Shown: positions 40,329-48,128 of the stretch, in pieces
Layout: each line of letters starts with the position of its first letter
Numbering within the stretch: position 1 is the stretch's first letter
Assembly: GCF_019670005.1 (NCBI RefSeq)
Contig: NZ_AP019783.1
Coordinates: 2,630,150 to 2,694,149, forward strand
Reading direction: 5' to 3'
DNA: 64,000 bases
Origin: Methylomagnum ishizawai
GTDB taxonomy: Bacteria; Pseudomonadota; Gammaproteobacteria; Methylococcales; Methylococcaceae
Notes under the pieces: model-generated
The model's database searches: none
Told to the model about the DNA's origin: nothing
What the model saw: only the letters and a program-made list of their open reading frames with translations
Made by a program: the position numbers and the translations under genes

Positions 40329-41282
40329 TCACGGCCTGCCCATGAGTTGCAGCTTGTCCAGCAATTTGACGAAGCGCCGGTAGCGGTCGGCACCGATGGT
40401 CCCGGCCTCGGCGGCTTCCCGCACGGCGCAGCCCTTGTCGCCGGTGTGGCGGCAATCGTTGAAACGGCAGCGCCCCAGCCAATCGCGGAACTCGCGGTAG
40501 CCCCAGGCCAAGTCCTGGGCGTTCATCTCGGCCAGGCCGAACACGGCCACGCCGGGGCTATCGATCAGATCGCCGCCGCCGGGCAGATGGTAGAGGGTGG
40601 CGGCGGTGGTGGTGTGGCGGCCCAAACCGGCCTTCTCGGACAATTCGCGGGTGCGGAGCTGCCGGTCCGGCAACAGCGCGTTGGTCAGCGAGGATTTGCC
40701 CACCCCGGATTGCCCGGCCAGCATGGCGCAGCGTCCCGCCAGTCCCGCCCGCAGTCCGTCCAAGCCCTCGCCGCTCCTGGCGCTGACGGCGAAACCGGGA
40801 TAACCGAGCGCCCGATAATCCGCCAAGGTGGCGAGGACGGCGGCGCGGTCCCCGACCCGGTCGATCTTGTTGACCACCACCGCCGCCGCCAAGTCCCGAT
40901 GCTCGCAAGCGGCCAGATATTGATCCACCAGCAGCCAATCCGGCTCCGGCGCGGGGGCCACCACCACCAGCACGATATCCAGGTTCGCCGCCACCGGCCT
41001 GACCTTGGCGTTATGGCCGGGCCGGGTCAACAGGCTACGGCGCGGCAAGACCTCTTCCACCCGGCCCTGGCCCTCGCTGGACACCCACAGCACCCGGTCG
41101 CCTACGGCCACGCCGCCCAAGCGCCTGCGGGTATGGCATAGCACGATCTCGCCCGCCGCGTTCTCGACGGCCAAGCCCTGGCCCAGATGGCTGATGACCA
41201 AGCCTTGTTGCGGGGACGGGGTGGCTGCTTGGGAAGCCGCGTCGGAGGTTTCCGGCGCGGCGGAGGCCCGCTTCCTGGTCAT
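40329..41282 (-). CDS. rsgA: Ribosome small-subunit maturation GTPase RsgA
   Basis: RsgA checks late 30S ribosome assembly using GTP. The 317-residue protein has an N-terminal OB-fold, the circularly permuted GTPase order (NKID before GQSGVGKSSL, then DSPGV) and a C-terminal zinc finger with CRFNDCRHTGDKGC. The switch motif HTTTAATLYHLP is intact. The start ATG overlaps the stop of the upstream M48 protease gene, so the two are translationally coupled. It converges with the SbmA-like gene 21 bases away. Confidence 0.95.
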   Translation of the reverse strand: MTRKRASAAPETSDAASQAATPSPQQGLVISHLGQGLAVENAAGEIVLCHTRRRLGGVAVGDRVLWVSSEGQGRVEEVLPRRSLLTRPGHNAKVRPVAANLDIVLVVVAPAPEPDWLLVDQYLAACEHRDLAAAVVVNKIDRVGDRAAVLATLADYRALGYPGFAVSARSGEGLDGLRAGLAGRCAMLAGQSGVGKSSLTNALLPDRQLRTRELSEKAGLGRHTTTAATLYHLPGGGDLIDSPGVAVFGLAEMNAQDLAWGYREFRDWLGRCRFNDCRHTGDKGCAVREAAEAGTIGADRYRRFVKLLDKLQLMGRP

Positions 41283-42523
41283 CAGCCGGCTTTGGCGGAA
41301 AGATGGGCGATGCGGATGGCGGCGGGGGGATGGCTGTAATGGAAGGCGGAATACAAGGGGTCCGGGGTCAGGGTGCTGGCGTTCTCGCGGTAGAGCTTGA
41401 CCAGGGCGCTGATGAGATAGGCGGGCCGGGTCTGGCCGGCGGCGAAATCGTCGGCCTCGAACTCATAACGCCGCTGGAAATAGGCCATGGCCGGTTGCAG
41501 GAACAAGGTGAAGGCCGGGGACACCAGCATGAACAGCAGCAAGGCCATGGCGTTGGAAGGGGTATGGACCCCGAGCCCCGCATAGAACCAATCCTGCCCG
41601 CTCAGCCAGCCCAGCAGGGCGAAGCCGACCAAGCTGACCGTGGCGCTCACCCCCAGCATCTTGAACACATGGCGGTGCTTGAAATGGCCGAGTTCGTGGG
41701 CCAGGACCGCCTCCAACTCGTCGTGTTCCAACGATTCGATCAAGGTATCGAAGAACACGATGCGCTTGCTATTGCCCATCCCGGTGAAATAGGCGTTGCC
41801 ATGGCCCGAGCGGCGCGAACCGTCCATCACGAAAATCCCCTGGCTCTGGAAACCGCAACGCGCCAACAGGGTCTCGATGCGCTGTTTCAAGGCTTCGTCC
41901 CGCAAGGGCGTGAACTTGTTGAACAGCGGGGCGATGAAGGTCGGGAACGCCCAGCTCATCAGGAGGGAAAACCCCATCAGGATGGCCCAGGCCAACAACC
42001 ACCACGCGCCCACGCTATCCATGACCCAGAGGATCAAGGCCAGGATCGGCGTGCCGATGGCGAGGCTGAGCAGCAATTGCAGGCCCAGGTCCTTGGCGAA
42101 TTGCTTGGGGGTGTTGCGGTTGAAACCGTAGCGCTCCTCGATGACGAAGGTCTTGTAGATGCCGAGCGGCAAACCCAGCAACTGCATCAGGATCAAGGTG
42201 GTCAGGATCGCGCCGATCCCGGTGGCGAGCGGCCCGAAACCGAAGCCGGCCCAAAAGCCCTGGATCGCCTCGATGCCACCGCCCAGGGTGAACAGCAGCA
42301 AGATCAACACCTCGATGGGCCGGTCGATATCGGCGAGGCGGTTCTTGTCCAGGGTGTAGTCGGCGGCCTTCTGGTGGGCTTCCAGGCCGATGCTATCGCG
42401 GAAGGCGGGGGGCACGGCGGCGCGATGGGCCAGGACGTGGGCGGCTTGGCGGCGCGACAGCCACCATTCGACGCCGAAGGACACGCCCACGGCAAGCAGG
42501 AACAAGACGGTGAAGGCATTCAT
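41282..42523 (-). CDS. M48-family (Ste24-type) membrane metallopeptidase
   Basis: This 413-residue inner-membrane protease has several predicted membrane helices and the zinc motif HELGH (His276 to His280), with the third ligand Glu in FEADDFAA. The motif layout and length match CAAX prenyl protease 1/Ste24-like enzymes found in many Gram-negative bacteria. Bacteria do not make CAAX-prenylated proteins of the yeast type, so its role is probably in membrane protein quality control. It is the first gene of a two-gene unit with rsgA and is divergent from orn. Confidence 0.9.
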
Positions 42524-42651
42524 GGGGGAAACAACTCCGTTGCGGTCGGTGGCACAGCTTAGCCTTTGGTAGAATCACTGACAAGCGGCCCAGGGCAACG
42601 TTCCCAGCCTGGGCCATCTTTCCTTCATGCTTGATATCCAAGGAAAAAATC

Positions 42652-43197
42652 ATGGCGACAACGGTGCAGGACTTGATCTGGATCGACCTGGAAATGACCG
42701 GGCTCGACCCCTTATCCGACCGGATCATCGAGGTGGCGACCCTCGTCACCGACAAGGATCTGAACCTCCTGGCCGAAGGCCCGGTGCTGGCGGTGTTCCA
42801 GGACGACAACACCCTCGCGGGGATGGACGACTGGAACCAGAAACATCACCGCGCCTCGGGCCTCGTCGAGCGGGTGCGGCAAAGCCGGGTGGACGAGGCC
42901 GAGGCCGAACGGCTGACCCTGGAATTCCTGGAACGCTGGATCGCGCCGGGGGTCTCGCCCATGTGCGGCAATAGCATCTGCCAGGACCGGCGCTTCCTGG
43001 CCCGCCACATGCCCCGGCTGGAGGCCCATTTCCATTACCGGAACCTGGATGTGTCCACCTTGAAGGAATTGGCGGCGCGGTGGGCACCGGAGGTCAAGGA
43101 AGGTTTCAAGAAGAACAACAGCCACCGGGCGCTGGACGATATCCGGGAATCCATCGCCGAACTCCGCTATTACCGGCAGCATTTGCTCAAGGTGTGA
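42652..43197 (+). CDS. orn: Oligoribonuclease
   Basis: Orn degrades very short RNAs and also pGpG, the product of c-di-GMP phosphodiesterases, in the cytoplasm. The 181-residue protein equals the E. coli enzyme in length and shows the DEDD exonuclease motifs: [20 protein letters not shown], and [11 protein letters not shown] at the end. The ATG chosen has an AAGGA site; a longer TTG start lacks support. Its function complements the HD-GYP enzyme elsewhere in the window. Confidence 0.96.
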
Positions 43198-43200
43198 GGC

Positions 43201-45402
43201 TCAATCGAGCAAGCGCAGGGGAACCCCCGCATCGGCATCGTCCAACGCCGTGAAGAGTTGGTCCCGCTCCTCCAAGAAGCGGTTGATTTCCTGGTCCAGG
43301 CGTTGGGCCTTGAGGTCCAGGCTCGGGGCGTGGGCCGCTTGCAGCACGGCCCGCTCCAAGGCATCGGCGCTGCTGCGGATGTCCCCCAGGCCGCAGAACG
43401 AGGCCGAGCCGTTGATCCTATGGGCGGACTCGCGCAGCTTGGTGAAATCCCCGCCGCGCAAGGCCCGCTGGATTTCCTGCGATTGCTCCTGCAATTCCTT
43501 CACCAGCTTCCGGGCCAGCGACTGGGCCAGCAGGCGGTCGCCGCCGGTCTTTTCCAGGAACACCGCCGCGCAATCCGCGAGCGGCTCGGTCCCGGCCCCT
43601 GGCCGCGCCGGCGGGACCGGCCCGATCTTCAGATATTTCCCCAACACCGCCAGCAACGGCCCGTCCAGGACCGGCTTGAGCAGCACATCGGCGAAACCGG
43701 CCTGGACGATGGCGATCCGCTCCTCTTCATCGAGATGGGCCGTCACCGCGACGAAGGGCGTGCTGTGGTTGGGCGAGAACTCCCCGAGCAGCAATTCCCG
43801 GAGCAACTCCAGCCCGCTCATCCCCGGCATCCTGAGGTCCATGAACACCAGGTCGAAAGCGCGGGTCCTGAGGCGCACCAAAGCCTTGGTGCCGTTCGGG
43901 GCCTCCACCACCCGCGCCCCCAGCCGGGTCAGGCGGGCTTCCAGCAGGCGGCGGTTGATCTCGTTGTCGTCCACCACCAGGAACTGCCGCCCCACCAACA
44001 ACGTGGACATCCCATCGAAGTGTGCCGCAACCTTCGGCGGGACGGGACTTTCGGCCAGGAGTTCCGACAAGGCGTCGCTCCGCACCGGATAACCCAGGCA
44101 AGGTAGGTTCTGCGCCCGGTAATACTCGCGGATGCGGCGGCTGGAATGCGGTAGGATCAACACCGGACGCCCACCCGCCGCCCGGACCCGCCCGATGCCC
44201 CGCAGCAACAAGGGTTGGGACTTCGCGGCGGCGTTGATCAACACCAAGACGCCATGCGCCCCGGCCTGATAGCTCCGGTCGAATTCCTCCAGGCTGGCGA
44301 AGCCATAGCCGGTCGCGCCCACGCTTTGCAATTGGTAGCGCAAGGCCTTGCGGGACAAGGGATCGGGATCGATCAAGGCCAGCTTGAAACCGGGGAAGCC
44401 GGGCTTGGCACGGACCGTGCCCGCTTCCAAAGGATGGGTGAACCAAAACGTGGACCCCTTGCCGGGCCGGCTCACCACGCCGATGGTCCCGCCCATGCGC
44501 TCGACGATGGCGCGGGCGATATTCAGCCCCAGGCCGGAACCGCGTTCGCCATTGGGCGCATACCCGTCCACTTGGGAAAACGGCGCGAACAAGCGGTCCA
44601 GATGCTCGGCGGCGATGCCCCGTCCGGTGTCGGATACCGAGAACAACAAGCTGGAATCGGCACGCCGCAAGCGCCGCGCCCGCACCACGATCCGCCCGGC
44701 ATGGGTGAATTTGACCGCGTTGCCCAGGAGGTTGGCGACCACCTGTTGCAGGCGGATGGGGTCGCCATGGAACAGTTCCGGCACGGCAGGCTCGACGCAC
44801 AGCACGATGGACACCTTGGCGCGGGCGCTGATCAGCGTCACGGTGTCTTCGAGATAGGGCCGCAAGGGGAACCATTCGGGCTTCAGCCTGAATTGCTCGG
44901 CTTCGATCCGGGCGAGGTCGAGGATTTCATTGACGATTTCCAGGAGGCTCTTGGCCGAGCGCTCGATCAAGCCCAGTTTTTCGAGCTGGTATTCGGCCAG
45001 CGGGGTTTTGGCCAGTAGATCGGCGAAACCGATGATGCCGTTCATCGGCGTGCGCATTTCGTGGCTCATCTGGGCCAGGAAGCGGGTTTTGATCTGGGCG
45101 CGGGTTTCGGCCTGCCGACAGGCCCGTTCCAGTTCCTCGTTACGGGCTTCCAAGGCATCCAATCTTGCGCGCAGGCTGGACAAGCCCACCGGGCCGCGAC
45201 GGGCCGGGACGCGATCCGAGCCGGGACCGGTCCGCGCCAACGCCAGGGTGGCCAACAACAGGGCCGAAGCCCAGCCCCCAAGGCCCAGCAAGGCCCAATC
45301 CCCCCCCCGCCCGAAGCGGTGGGCCAGGATCGCGGCCAAGGCCAACCCCACGGCCACTCCGCATAGTTTCACACCGATATGGATACGCAACTCAAACCGC
45401 AT
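43201..45402 (-). CDS. BarA-like hybrid histidine kinase (HisKA, ATPase, receiver, Hpt) with a minimal sensor
   Basis: The 733-residue protein has two hydrophobic segments in the first 70 residues with almost no periplasmic loop, then a coiled coil. A HisKA domain (SHEMRTPMNGIIGFADLL), HATPase (NLLGNAVKFTH, DTGRGIA, GSGLGLNIAR), a degenerate receiver-like segment, a true receiver (FLVVDDN, VFMDLRMPGMSG) and a C-terminal Hpt (ESAHRINGSASFCG) follow. This is the BarA/GacS layout, but the HAMP and the periplasmic sensor are missing. It may respond to a membrane or cytoplasmic state. The start is the ATG just before the first hydrophobic segment; a 24-codon longer form is possible. Confidence 0.85.
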   Translation of the reverse strand: MRFELRIHIGVKLCGVAVGLALAAILAHRFGRGGDWALLGLGGWASALLLATLALARTGPGSDRVPARRGPVGLSSLRARLDALEARNEELERACRQAETRAQIKTRFLAQMSHEMRTPMNGIIGFADLLAKTPLAEYQLEKLGLIERSAKSLLEIVNEILDLARIEAEQFRLKPEWFPLRPYLEDTVTLISARAKVSIVLCVEPAVPELFHGDPIRLQQVVANLLGNAVKFTHAGRIVVRARRLRRADSSLLFSVSDTGRGIAAEHLDRLFAPFSQVDGYAPNGERGSGLGLNIARAIVERMGGTIGVVSRPGKGSTFWFTHPLEAGTVRAKPGFPGFKLALIDPDPLSRKALRYQLQSVGATGYGFASLEEFDRSYQAGAHGVLVLINAAAKSQPLLLRGIGRVRAAGGRPVLILPHSSRRIREYYRAQNLPCLGYPVRSDALSELLAESPVPPKVAAHFDGMSTLLVGRQFLVVDDNEINRRLLEARLTRLGARVVEAPNGTKALVRLRTRAFDLVFMDLRMPGMSGLELLRELLLGEFSPNHSTPFVAVTAHLDEEERIAIVQAGFADVLLKPVLDGPLLAVLGKYLKIGPVPPARPGAGTEPLADCAAVFLEKTGGDRLLAQSLARKLVKELQEQSQEIQRALRGGDFTKLRESAHRINGSASFCGLGDIRSSADALERAVLQAAHAPSLDLKAQRLDQEINRFLEERDQLFTALDDADAGVPLRLLD

Positions 45403-45652
45403 GTAATGAAGCCGTTTTTCCCGGCAGGGTACGAGCCAACAACGCGAGCCTGACACCGCGTCCAGCCCGGCCATCCGGGACTGTCACGCGGACGGCTAGT
45501 CTACAACAATAGGTTATATCCGGCGCTAATGGAGATGAATCTGGGTATTTCTGCGTCGGCCGGGGGAAGGGCCGGACTTGGCGGGGGATGGCAGGCTACC
45601 GGCGACCCCACACCGCGGGCGGATCACCGCCGCGGGAAACGCCGCCGGTATC

Positions 45653-45844
45653 TCAAAGCCCCGAGATGATGGCGATGAGCAACAACAACAGGAAGACGCC
45701 GGTGGTCACGAACATGGTGAACCAACTCCAACGCCCCCCGCCCGCGCCCGCCGTGCCACCGCCGGCCTCTTCGATGGGCTGTCCGCAACCGCTGCAAACA
45801 ACCGCCTTGTCCTTCACCTCTTTACCGCAGTGGCGACAATACAT
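45653..45844 (-). CDS. Small zinc-ribbon membrane protein
   Basis: This 63-residue protein starts MYCRHCGKEVKDKAVVCSGCG, giving a CxxC...CxxC zinc ribbon, and after a Gly-rich linker ends in one membrane helix (TMFVTTGVFLLLLLIAIIS). A GAGGG ribosome site precedes the chosen ATG; upstream extension would add low-quality sequence. Many bacteria have such zinc-ribbon/single-helix proteins of unknown role. It is divergent from the bufferin-like precursor gene. Confidence 0.75.
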   Translation of the reverse strand: MYCRHCGKEVKDKAVVCSGCGQPIEEAGGGTAGAGGGRWSWFTMFVTTGVFLLLLLIAIISGL

Positions 45845-46166
45845 GGTCCAACCCTCGCTCGCTTTTGATCTTGAACACGATGCGCCCGGCCGCCGGGCGC
45901 GGCAGAGCATAGCGTAATGCGTCCCGACCCGCCAGGATGGGGAGGCGGCCCCGGATCGGCCACTGCACAAGACCGGGTCCGTTATGTGAGAATACCGTCC
46001 CCACGGGGCTTCCAGGCCGGGGCCGGTCCACGGCGGCGTGTCCATAATCCGCGCAACTTTCCGGCATCCCCAGGTCTAAGGCTACCGTGCGCCGGTCCCC
46101 ATCCAGCACCCCGCGGGAAGACCGGCCATACCAACTAGATCAGCAACGAGAAGAGGAAACCGAGAC
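45845..46166. other. 322-base divergent intergenic region upstream of the bufferin-like cluster
   Basis: No gene is seen. It contains a GC hairpin (9-base stem near 45883-45901) and should carry promoters for the zinc-ribbon gene and the EGKC precursor gene. No metal-regulator operator or ECF sigma motif could be recognised by eye. Confidence 0.4.
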
Positions 46167-46511
46167 ATGAGCAAGAAGACCATCGGCACCGTCATGGGCG
46201 CAGCCATCGCCACCACCCTGGCCGGTGCCGCCAGCGCGGGCGAGAATCCGTTCGCGTTGAAAGACCTCGCCAACGGCTATATGCAAGTGGCCGAGGCGGG
46301 CAAGGAATCCAAGGAAATGGTCTGCGGCGAAGGCAAATGCGGCGGGAAAGCGGCGAAAAGCCCGGAGATGAACTGCGGCGCGATGAAAGAACAAGCGCTC
46401 AAGAAGGAAGCCGAACAGGCCAAGGCGATGGAAGGCAAATGCGCCGGCATGAAGATGGACACCCCGGCCCCGGCCACCCCGGCTCCCGCCGAAGCACCGA
46501 AACCCCAATAA
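46167..46511 (+). CDS. Bufferin/HvfA-like precursor peptide with EGKC motifs
   Basis: This 114-residue precursor has a signal peptide (residues 1 to about 24, AASA), then [18 protein letters not shown], a phrase typical of the EGKCG class of MNIO-modified precursors (BufA2/HvfA group). Cysteines are at 53, 58, 70 and 92, with EGKC at 55-58 and 89-92. A Lys/Ala/Glu-rich helix and a Pro/Ala tail follow. In characterised relatives, cysteines of EGKCG motifs are converted by a DUF692 enzyme with a DUF2063 partner, and the product binds copper in the periplasm. The next two genes are such an enzyme and partner. The modification here is inferred. Confidence 0.85.
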
Positions 46512-46531
46512 GCCCCGGCCCGCCGCGCCGC

Positions 46532-47374
46532 ATGAACGAATTTGCGATACAAGGCGCGGGACTCGGACTCAGGCGGGCCTTCATCGGCCCCCTGAGCGGG
46601 CATCCTCCCGCCCAGGTCGATTTCTACGAGGTCGCCCCGGAAAACTGGATGCGGATCGGCGGCAGGCTCGGCAAGCAATTCCGCGCCCTGACCGAACGCC
46701 GGCCCTTCGTCTGCCACGGCCTTTCCCTCTCCCTGGGCAGCCCCGCCCCGCTGGACGAAGCCTTCGTCCGCGAAACCAAGACCTTCCTCGACCGGCACGG
46801 CATCGCCCGCTACAGCGAACATCTGAGCTATTGCGGCGACGAGGGCCATCTCTACGACCTGATGCCCATCCCCTTCACGCCGGAAGCCGTGCGCTACGTG
46901 GCGGCGCGGATCCGCAGGGTGCAGGACATCCTGGAACGGCGCATCGCCATCGAGAACATCTCCTATTACGCCGCCCCCGGCCAGGAAATGGCCGAAATCG
47001 ATTTCCTCAAGGGGGTTTTGGCCGAGGCCGATTGCGATCTGCTGTTGGATGTCAACAACATCCATGTCAACAGCGTCAACCACGGCTACAACGCCGCGGC
47101 CTTCCTGGACGCCATCCCCGCCGAACGCATCGTTTACCTGCATGTGGCGGGGCATTATGTCGAGGCCGAGGATTTCCTGGTCGACACCCATGGCGCGGCC
47201 ATCGCCGATCCGGTATGGCGGCTGTTGGACCGCGCCTACGCCCGCTTCGGCGTCCTGCCCACCCTGCTGGAACGCGATTTCAACATCCCGCCCCTGGCCG
47301 AACTGCTGGCCGAGGTCGATGGAATCCGCGCCCTGCAAGCCCGCCACACCCAAGCCCTGCGCCGCTATGCCTGA
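46532..47374 (+). CDS. MNIO-family (DUF692) modifying enzyme
   Basis: This 280-residue cytoplasmic TIM-barrel enzyme belongs to the multinuclear non-heme iron oxidase family (DUF692, BufB/HvfB/MbnB group). Conserved metal-site motifs are visible: [35 protein letters not shown] and DTHG. It is expected to oxidise cysteines of the EGKC precursor encoded 20 bases upstream. The start ATG has no strong ribosome site, but the N-terminal GLGLRRAF and EVAPENW match the family. Its stop overlaps the start of the DUF2063 partner. Confidence 0.93.
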
Positions 47375-48128
47375 AGCCGATTTCCAGCGGATACAGCGCG
47401 GATTCGCCGCCCATATCCGCGATCCCGCCCACCAGCCCGCGCCCGCCGATGTCGCGCCCCGGCGCATGGCGACCTACCGCGAACTGTTCTTCAACAATAT
47501 CGAGAACTTCATCGCCACCGGCTTCCCGGTGCTGAAATCGATCCTGGCGGGCGGGCGCTGGTCGGCCCTGGTCGAAGATTTCTACGCCCGCCACCGCTGC
47601 CAAAGCCCATTGTTCGTCGAAATCGCCCAGGAATTCCTGGCCTATCTCGGCGCGGAACGCGGCCCGCGGCCGGACGATCCGCCCTTTATGCCGGAACTGG
47701 CCCATTACGAATGGGTGGAACTGGCCCTGGCGGTCGCCGAGGCCGAAGTACCGCCGCTGGACCCGGAGTTCGAGGCCGACCCGCTGGCGCACACGATCCG
47801 GCTGTCCGAACTGGCCTGGCCCTTGGCCTATGGCTATCCCGTGCATTTGATCGGGCCGGACCATCAGCCGACCGACCCCCCGCCGCAACCCACCTGCCTG
47901 GTGGTTTACCGGGACGCGGAGGACGCGGTGCGGTTCATGGAGGTCAACCCGGCGACGTACCGGCTGCTGGCCTTGTTGGAAGCGGATGGCCCCCTCCCGG
48001 CGGTGGCTTGCCTGACCCGCCTCGCGGAGGAACTGCGCCATCCCGACCCCGCCGCCGTGTTGGCGTTCGGGGCGGAGATATTGCGGGATTTAGGGCGGCG
48101 CGGGGTGGTCGGGACCGTCGCCGCTTGA
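47367..48128 (+). CDS. DUF2063 partner protein (BufC/HvfC-like)
   Basis: This 253-residue protein is the substrate-recognition partner of MNIO enzymes. The N-terminal DUF2063 helix bundle reads [40 protein letters not shown], followed by a C-terminal domain of about 100 residues ending in a winged-helix-like segment. The start overlaps the DUF692 stop by eight bases, so the pair is translationally coupled. In characterised relatives this protein delivers the precursor leader to the enzyme. A DoxX-like or other fourth gene is not present downstream. Confidence 0.92.

Follow-up and report, generated by a model that had tools for sequence, protein, structure and literature searches.

The probable methanotroph Methylomagnum ishizawai carries a compact cluster for a small, putatively exported cysteine peptide, an MNIO enzyme and a DUF2063 protein. 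The question it raises is whether this peptide is a single divergent member of the HvfA/EGKCG class or belongs to a form of its own, and what such a peptide might do in its host. We analyzed the cluster within a 64,000-nucleotide stretch of the genome (the window) and compared it with its counterparts in the same family and order. Judged by its sequence, the peptide is probably a reduced, non-repeat, KCA-ended and DoxX-less form of the HvfA/oxazolin-captophorin peptides, and apparently an undescribed one. A literature search over titles and abstract openings in one library found no description of the short form, and the main text of a survey of the MNIO landscape (PMC12452194) has no 'methylo' term.

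Organization of the cluster

The cluster consists of three co-directional genes encoding the precursor, the MNIO and the DUF2063 protein (Table 1), and the coordinates (46167-48128), frames, gene order and eight-base overlap given in the first-pass annotation are borne out. The MNIO gene starts 20 bp past the precursor stop, and shares the eight bases ATGCCTGA (47367-47374) with the DUF2063 gene. The flanking genes that were scanned encode the zinc ribbon protein and hybrid kinase of Table 1, one product without assignment and a UDP-glucose dehydrogenase; no transporter gene was found in this subset of flanking ORFs, and no evidence was seen that the kinase at 43201-45474 controls the hvf operon. 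The cluster also lacks a DoxX gene; PF07681 is matched just once in this genome, within a DUF2282 cluster elsewhere.

Table 1. The hvf-like cluster and neighboring features in the window
Feature	Coordinates	Strand	Basis
Hybrid histidine kinase with receiver and Hpt domains, near the operon	43201-45474	minus	
63-aa divergent protein, zinc ribbon and hydrophobic tail, upstream of hvfA	45653-45844	minus	
Promoter-like GCAACTTT (46053-46060), 13-nt spacer, GTCTAA (46074-46079)	46053-46079	+	conserved upstream
hvfA-like precursor, 114 aa, 4 Cys, Pro/Ala-rich tail	46167-46511	+	ORF, homology
Putative signal peptide as judged by eye, with KK, a hydrophobic stretch and ASA preceding G25	46167-46238	+	sequence
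Tandem sites 1 and 2: EMVCG (50-54), EGKCG (55-59)	46314-46343	+	alignment
Site 3: EMNCG (67-71)	46365-46379	+	alignment
Site 4: EGKCA (89-93), then GMKMD	46431-46445	+	Ala after last Cys family-wide
hvfB-like MNIO maturase, 280 aa	46532-47374	+	NF003818 match, 3BWW relative
hvfC-like RRE/DUF2063 partner (PME type 1), 253 aa	47367-48128	+	NF050145, 3DEE relative

Four pentamers in the precursor

The precursor contains EGKC at residues 55-58 and 89-92, further cysteines at 53 and 70, and the ENPF...DL..GYM phrase, all as first described. The two EGKC motifs stand, but the other cysteines are not stray, and all four lie within a degenerate pentamer, ExxC[G/A], that is used four times. Cys53 belongs to EMVCG, which forms a tandem with the adjoining EGKCG, and the supposed 30-residue gap between the EGKC motifs holds a third pentamer, EMNCG. 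None of 200,000 shuffles of the sequence after residue 25 placed all four cysteines in [ED]xxC[GA], and the pattern is therefore beyond chance. The putative Sec signal, which looks typical by eye, is conserved in the aligned family precursors.

Membership of the HvfA family depends on the model used. The precursor has no Pfam family at E≤1, and scores 17.2 bits with the HvfA domain model NF050137, 2.3 short of the cut-off of 19.5, which the precursor of the sister species (16.1 bits) also misses. As yardsticks, the canonical precursors of loci L034 and L106 score 50.2 and 80.9 bits, and of nine other precursors five pass (L034, L106, L063, L151 and L202) and four miss (L084, L146, L166 and L175). 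Because 18 of 30 family precursors pass this model and 12 are missed, the shortfall of the window precursor is marginal and the short form lies at the fringe of the HvfA family; a view of the short precursors as lying outside the HvfA models has to be softened for the same reason. The HvfA equivalog NF050188 is missed widely (14.8 bits, cut-off 95) and is passed by none of the 30 family precursors, but the canonical L034 and L106 fail as well, so its cut-off is too narrow to decide membership. AlphaFold yields no fold for the precursor, with low confidence throughout (mean pLDDT 51.8), and thus lends no support to an ordered copper site, unlike a mid-size repeat protein reported as a beta-helix in the part of PMC12452194 available.

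A short form shared by the family

The precursor had been taken for one divergent gene; instead, the form with three or four cysteines is found in 36 of 38 genomes of the family. Precursor matches (E≤0.01) and MNIO matches (E≤1e-40) are present in all 38, and in 36 the precursor match lies directly 5' of the HvfB gene. G021, which yielded a DoxX-type precursor and no other, and G034, with a copy shortened N-terminally, were set aside, and motifs were counted in the precursors of the 36 other genomes, one from each and 35 of them distinct in sequence. Their cysteines number four in 21 precursors and three in 15, and 125 of the 129 fit [ED]xxC[GA], with E at -3 in 123 and G or A at +1 in every one. 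The last cysteine is followed by Ala in 36/36 (EGKCA in 28, EKKCA in 6, ESKCA in 2) and the others by Gly in 92/93. An abutting pair of sites, of which the window precursor has one, occurs in 23 of the 36 and is missing from 13. Among the 15 precursors with three cysteines, 13 have the tandem pair merged and keep the EMxCG third site, and the remaining two keep the pair and have no third site.

Among 80 named loci retrieved by similarity to HvfB, a pattern search located a precursor in 68. The KCA-ended form with three or four cysteines was present in eight of these (L033, L036, L037, L040, L041, L045, L053 and L066), all labelled Methylococcaceae or Methylumidiphilus and repeating sequences of the family genomes; L091, which shows EGKCG three times in a partial frame, does not belong to the short form. 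As far as sampled, the short form appears special to one family.

Two genomes of one genus, G022 and G023, have the precursor and maturation genes split (L160, L161; L153, L154), the four-cysteine precursor being located away from HvfB, and in G023 a precursor with a single EMKCG stands beside HvfB. Two-cysteine orphan paralogues of 98 aa (EMACG, EGKCG), identical in two species, are present in G006 and G007 (L158, L159), and no MNIO gene was found near them.

The maturation enzymes and related systems

The assignments to HvfB and HvfC hold, with 434.4 bits for the MNIO on NF003818 (cut-off 360) and 317.4 bits for its partner on NF050145 (cut-off 142), both from NCBIfam. Pfam places the MNIO in PF05114 (348 bits) and the partner, which is related to 3DEE, in PF09836 (90 bits) and PF22106 (112.7 bits). 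The predicted MNIO model (mean pLDDT 87.7) is nearest to 3BWW (TM 0.81, 40% identity), then to TglH and MbnB, and its structural matches include 7DZ9, 7FC0 and 7TCR.

A kinship with the EGKCG class, proposed at the outset, is upheld by comparison with the HvfABC(X)/oxazolin system of Haemophilus influenzae (Buf_EGKCG), with which the window shares gene order, the CGEGKCG core, and HvfB and HvfC proteins above their equivalog cut-offs. Oxazolin has three AEGKCGEGKCG motifs, however, whereas the window precursor has four mixed pentamers ending in EGKCA, and there is no DoxX gene, which is frequent but not obligatory in HvfABC/Buf_EGKCG clusters. Set against the Buf_EGKCG motif definition in the part of PMC12452194 available, the precursor has one each of EGKCG, EGKCA, EMVCG and EMNCG. 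In its strict DUF2282 sense the name bufferin does not apply here, since the precursor is without a Pfam family; a real DUF2282 cluster is present elsewhere in the genome. Common to both are an MNIO, a DUF2063 partner and an exported precursor, and the window MNIO reaches 264.7 bits on the BufB model, below the cut-off of 310.

The FonABC fontiphorin system, as presented in the accessible sections of PMC13097082, shares Arg-Arg and Asp-Phe residues, FonBC-type pentamers and a DUF2063 partner with the window cluster, but FonA has seven modification sites, as against four in the window precursor, where the residue before Cys is not Lys in two. In the same sections, Arg15, Arg16, Phe250 and Asp249 of FonB are tied to Lys-Cys substrates and catalysis. 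These correspond to R14, R15, F250 and D249 of the window MNIO, and are kept in 116, 116, 116 and 117 of 117 aligned MNIOs, respectively; BufB of the same genome has Ala at the R15 and F250 positions. D218 and H220 (DTH) are invariant in 117/117 and match by motif HvfB D242 and H244, which are reported to be essential. The window thus has an MNIO-PME1 pair with the Lys-Cys-type specificity residues R14, R15, D249 and F250, as in the clusters of captophorins, the Cu(I)-binding peptides with 5-thiooxazoles (-4 Da, ~302-305 nm).

A conserved promoter-like element

The region upstream of the precursor contains a conserved element of two parts. We take this GCAACTTT-N13-GTCTAA to resemble the -35/-10 pair of an ECF sigma factor. 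With at least 11 of 14 bases matching (≤3 mismatches), it is present at spacer 13 in 21 of 30 family upstreams, as against 0.9% of shuffles, at positions -78 to -115 and across 10 of the 14 genera, the rows within a genus not being independent. Spacers of 11, 12, 14 and 15 give matches in 0-2 of the 30 rows, and the element is absent or weak in nine. The exact core AACTT-N14-GTCTAA has one match in the 5.2-Mb genome, the one here, and the reversed control also has one; over 38 genomes there are 22 matches versus 45 for the reversed control, so the core is notable not for its count but for the location of nine matches just upstream of a precursor, including the orphans of G022 and G023. A search of the genome for a wider regulon at two mismatches gave four matches versus five for the reversed control, and no further target can be named.

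The element has relatives beyond the family. Outside the methanotroph clade, a related form, in most cases GAAACTTT-N14-GTC, stands before 17 of 28 precursors (at least 11/14; shuffles 0.95%), whereas among 30 Methylomonadaceae-type upstreams no match occurs with spacer 13 and two occur with spacer 14. The GAAACTTT-N14-GTC form precedes the hvf clusters of L034, L038, L046, L106 and others. Transcription of the window operon is likely driven by an ECF-type promoter, and a shared ECF-type control of HvfA operons outside the methanotroph clade is likewise likely.

Distribution, phylogeny and DoxX

In the order, 143 of 161 genomes have relatives of the precursor by a profile built on 30 family sequences, and 144 have an HvfB match. 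At 16 loci of families f2, f3, f4, f6, f7 and f8 the precursors have 5-13 cysteines, mostly in EGKCG in f3, f6 and f7 and in mixed pentamers in f2, f4 and f8. In a tree of 117 MNIO proteins, all 35 short-form rows and the Methylomonadaceae-type rows form a clade of 74 (support 100/96), inside which L060 lies on a long branch, yet has an EGKCG precursor and DoxX. The short form does not correspond to one clean HvfB clade, as well-supported branches force at least two changes.

A DoxX gene follows HvfB in 27 of 36 named loci outside the clade that have enough flank (L060 counted as outside). Inside the methanotroph clade it does so in none of the 49 core-lineage loci with enough flank, several of them from the same genomes; 42 further loci, some of them non-core, had too little flank to be counted. 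DoxX is also absent from all 16 loci read in the order's other families, including those of f6 and f7 with EGKCG repeats, and a loss of DoxX together with the long precursor is thereby rejected. Because core-lineage and other-family loci, the repeat type included, are without DoxX, its loss looks older.

Proposed function and alternative explanations

Beside the anatomy, conservation, enzyme class and promoter-like element described above, a chemistry, a role of the leader, copper binding and a function can be proposed from characterized relatives. The reading we favor, and regard as reasonably likely, is that the peptide is exported and that its four ExxC[G/A] cysteines are converted to 5-thiooxazoles by HvfB, with HvfC as partner, to give a periplasmic Cu(I) buffer. 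The HvfB-type iron enzyme would oxidize the four pentamer cysteines, for a predicted outcome of four thiooxazoles and -16 Da; the HvfC-type partner would bind the precursor, whose signal peptide would serve as leader, and would maintain enzyme activity. Once exported by Sec, the rings, perhaps together with neighboring Met residues, would bind and buffer periplasmic Cu(I). The product would probably be a reduced thiooxazole copper-binding peptide with a fixed site number, its sites few (three or four) and mostly spaced in comparison with repeat-type oxazolin, with a constant last site KCA.

Thiooxazoles and Cu(I) binding are predicted because the chemistry of relatives is published and their pocket residues are present here. 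According to parts of PMC13097082, PMC13419390 and PMC12452194, 5-thiooxazoles form at EGKCG and Ala after Cys is tolerated, HvfC enables a mixed-valent diiron state, and the signal peptide is the leader, HvfA without it being poorly modified. The available sections of PMC13097082 report that Arg and Phe residues shape the MNIO pocket, that FonBC accepts Ala after Cys (EAKCAEGKCA), DGKCG, and Ala, Arg or Thr at position 3, that NVCGG as a 5-mer is modified once, and that fontiphorin and gonophorin bind copper. The same sections describe a one-repeat substrate that FonBC left unmodified, two repeats being needed, which counts against the favored reading because 13/36 family precursors have no abutting pair; two window sites have Val or Asn at position 3, where the single variants seen there are Ala, Arg and Thr. 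The missing DoxX, an element weak or absent in 9/30 upstreams and the absence of hvf genes from family f5 also count against it.

The copper-enzyme host proposed earlier is supported by three PF02461 pmoA-type genes in the genome, from which the host is very likely a methanotroph; this bears on methanotrophy, and the function of the peptide is not thereby shown. The proposed tie to copper enzymes itself is weakened, as all 10 genomes of family f5 are without precursor (profile E≤1e-8) and HvfB (E≤1e-70) and 7/10 have pmoA, which rules out that hvf is needed for pMMO. In the family, pmoA was found in 23 of 38 genomes; of the remaining 15, many are fragmented assemblies. The main text of a copper transcriptome of M. 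capsulatus (PMC4831470) contains no DUF or UPF term.

The target could instead be another thiophilic metal or an oxidant (gold, mercury, oxidative stress) with copper binding incidental, which we consider unlikely. The ECF-like promoter element is of a kind seen in envelope stress control. Not copper alone but also gold and oxidative stress induce such clusters, but characterized relatives bind Cu (PMC13097082, available sections), and the host, very likely a methanotroph, carries pMMO genes.

Less probable still is an ordinary oxazolin in decay, with modification now confined to the two EGKC sites, EMVCG and EMNCG left as relics, and a marginal function. Most precursors outside the methanotroph clade have more sites than this peptide, which with its sister precursor falls below both HvfA models, but decay sits poorly with the presence of the form in 36/38 genomes and with E at -3 and G or A at +1 of nearly every cysteine. 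Merger of the pair has left the EMxCG third site in 13/15 three-cysteine precursors, the other two keeping the pair, and the window and sister-species (G018) precursors, 96% identical as proteins, differ by dN 0.019 and dS 0.100 (dN/dS ~0.19).

Of the remaining alternatives, a secreted, methanobactin-like chalkophore for copper acquisition is suggested by the MNIO family, whose fold is shared with MbnABC, and by the methanotroph host, and is very improbable given 42.1 bits on MbnB (TIGR04159, cut-off 325), a DUF2063-type partner, a precursor of another type with a Sec-type signal (by eye) in place of a short leader, and no transporter among the flanking genes scanned. That the precursor stays unmodified, or that the MNIO works mainly in trans on another precursor, would suit the distant precursors of G022 and G023 and the orphan copies of G006 and G007, and is as improbable, with the precursor directly 5' of HvfB in 36/38 genomes and the G022 and G023 orphans retaining the promoter element, as if one system had split.

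Returning to the periplasmic Cu(I) buffer, a further step, which we put forward as quite doubtful, is that a repeat-type copper sponge became a ligand of defined stoichiometry, with three or four fixed thiooxazoles and a K-C-A last site (usually then G-M) with Met ligands, and that it acts as a periplasmic donor or buffer serving pMMO rather than as a stress sink. Longer products of the class aggregate and are suspected of stochastic copper binding (PMC13097082, available sections), and the present peptide would be a short, few-site member that is family-wide. With four sites, it may be a tractable substrate for the residues accepted around Cys, the modification of isolated sites and periplasmic copper in methanotrophs. 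Searches for EGKCG only undercount sites, as the pentamer fits 125/129 cysteines and the NCBI domain model misses 12/30 precursors.

Other MNIO clusters

The DUF2282 cluster of the same genome (L002, G000:C3, ~41,000-43,600) encodes a DUF2282 precursor, an MNIO, a DUF2063 protein and DoxX. Its precursor scores 81.7 bits with Pfam DUF2282 and 30.7 with NCBIfam BufA2, below the cut-off of 60; by sequence, this is a bufferin 1 type operon.

A second type of HvfB cluster, with seven members from six genomes of the family (L146-L152), groups on a separate branch (99/76) and has precursors of EGNCG/EGGCS type. DoxX is present in six of the seven, the seventh having too little flank, and sigma and anti-sigma genes adjoin five. 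A broken cluster of this second type in G019 (L157), in which HvfB aligns over 204-280 only and HvfC is partial, retains its sigma and anti-sigma genes; no such sigma gene adjoins the window cluster. At an HvfB locus of Methyloprofundus (L088), where the pattern search found no precursor, distant relatives of the sigma (35%) and anti-sigma (31%) proteins are encoded within ~1.3 kb 5' of HvfB.
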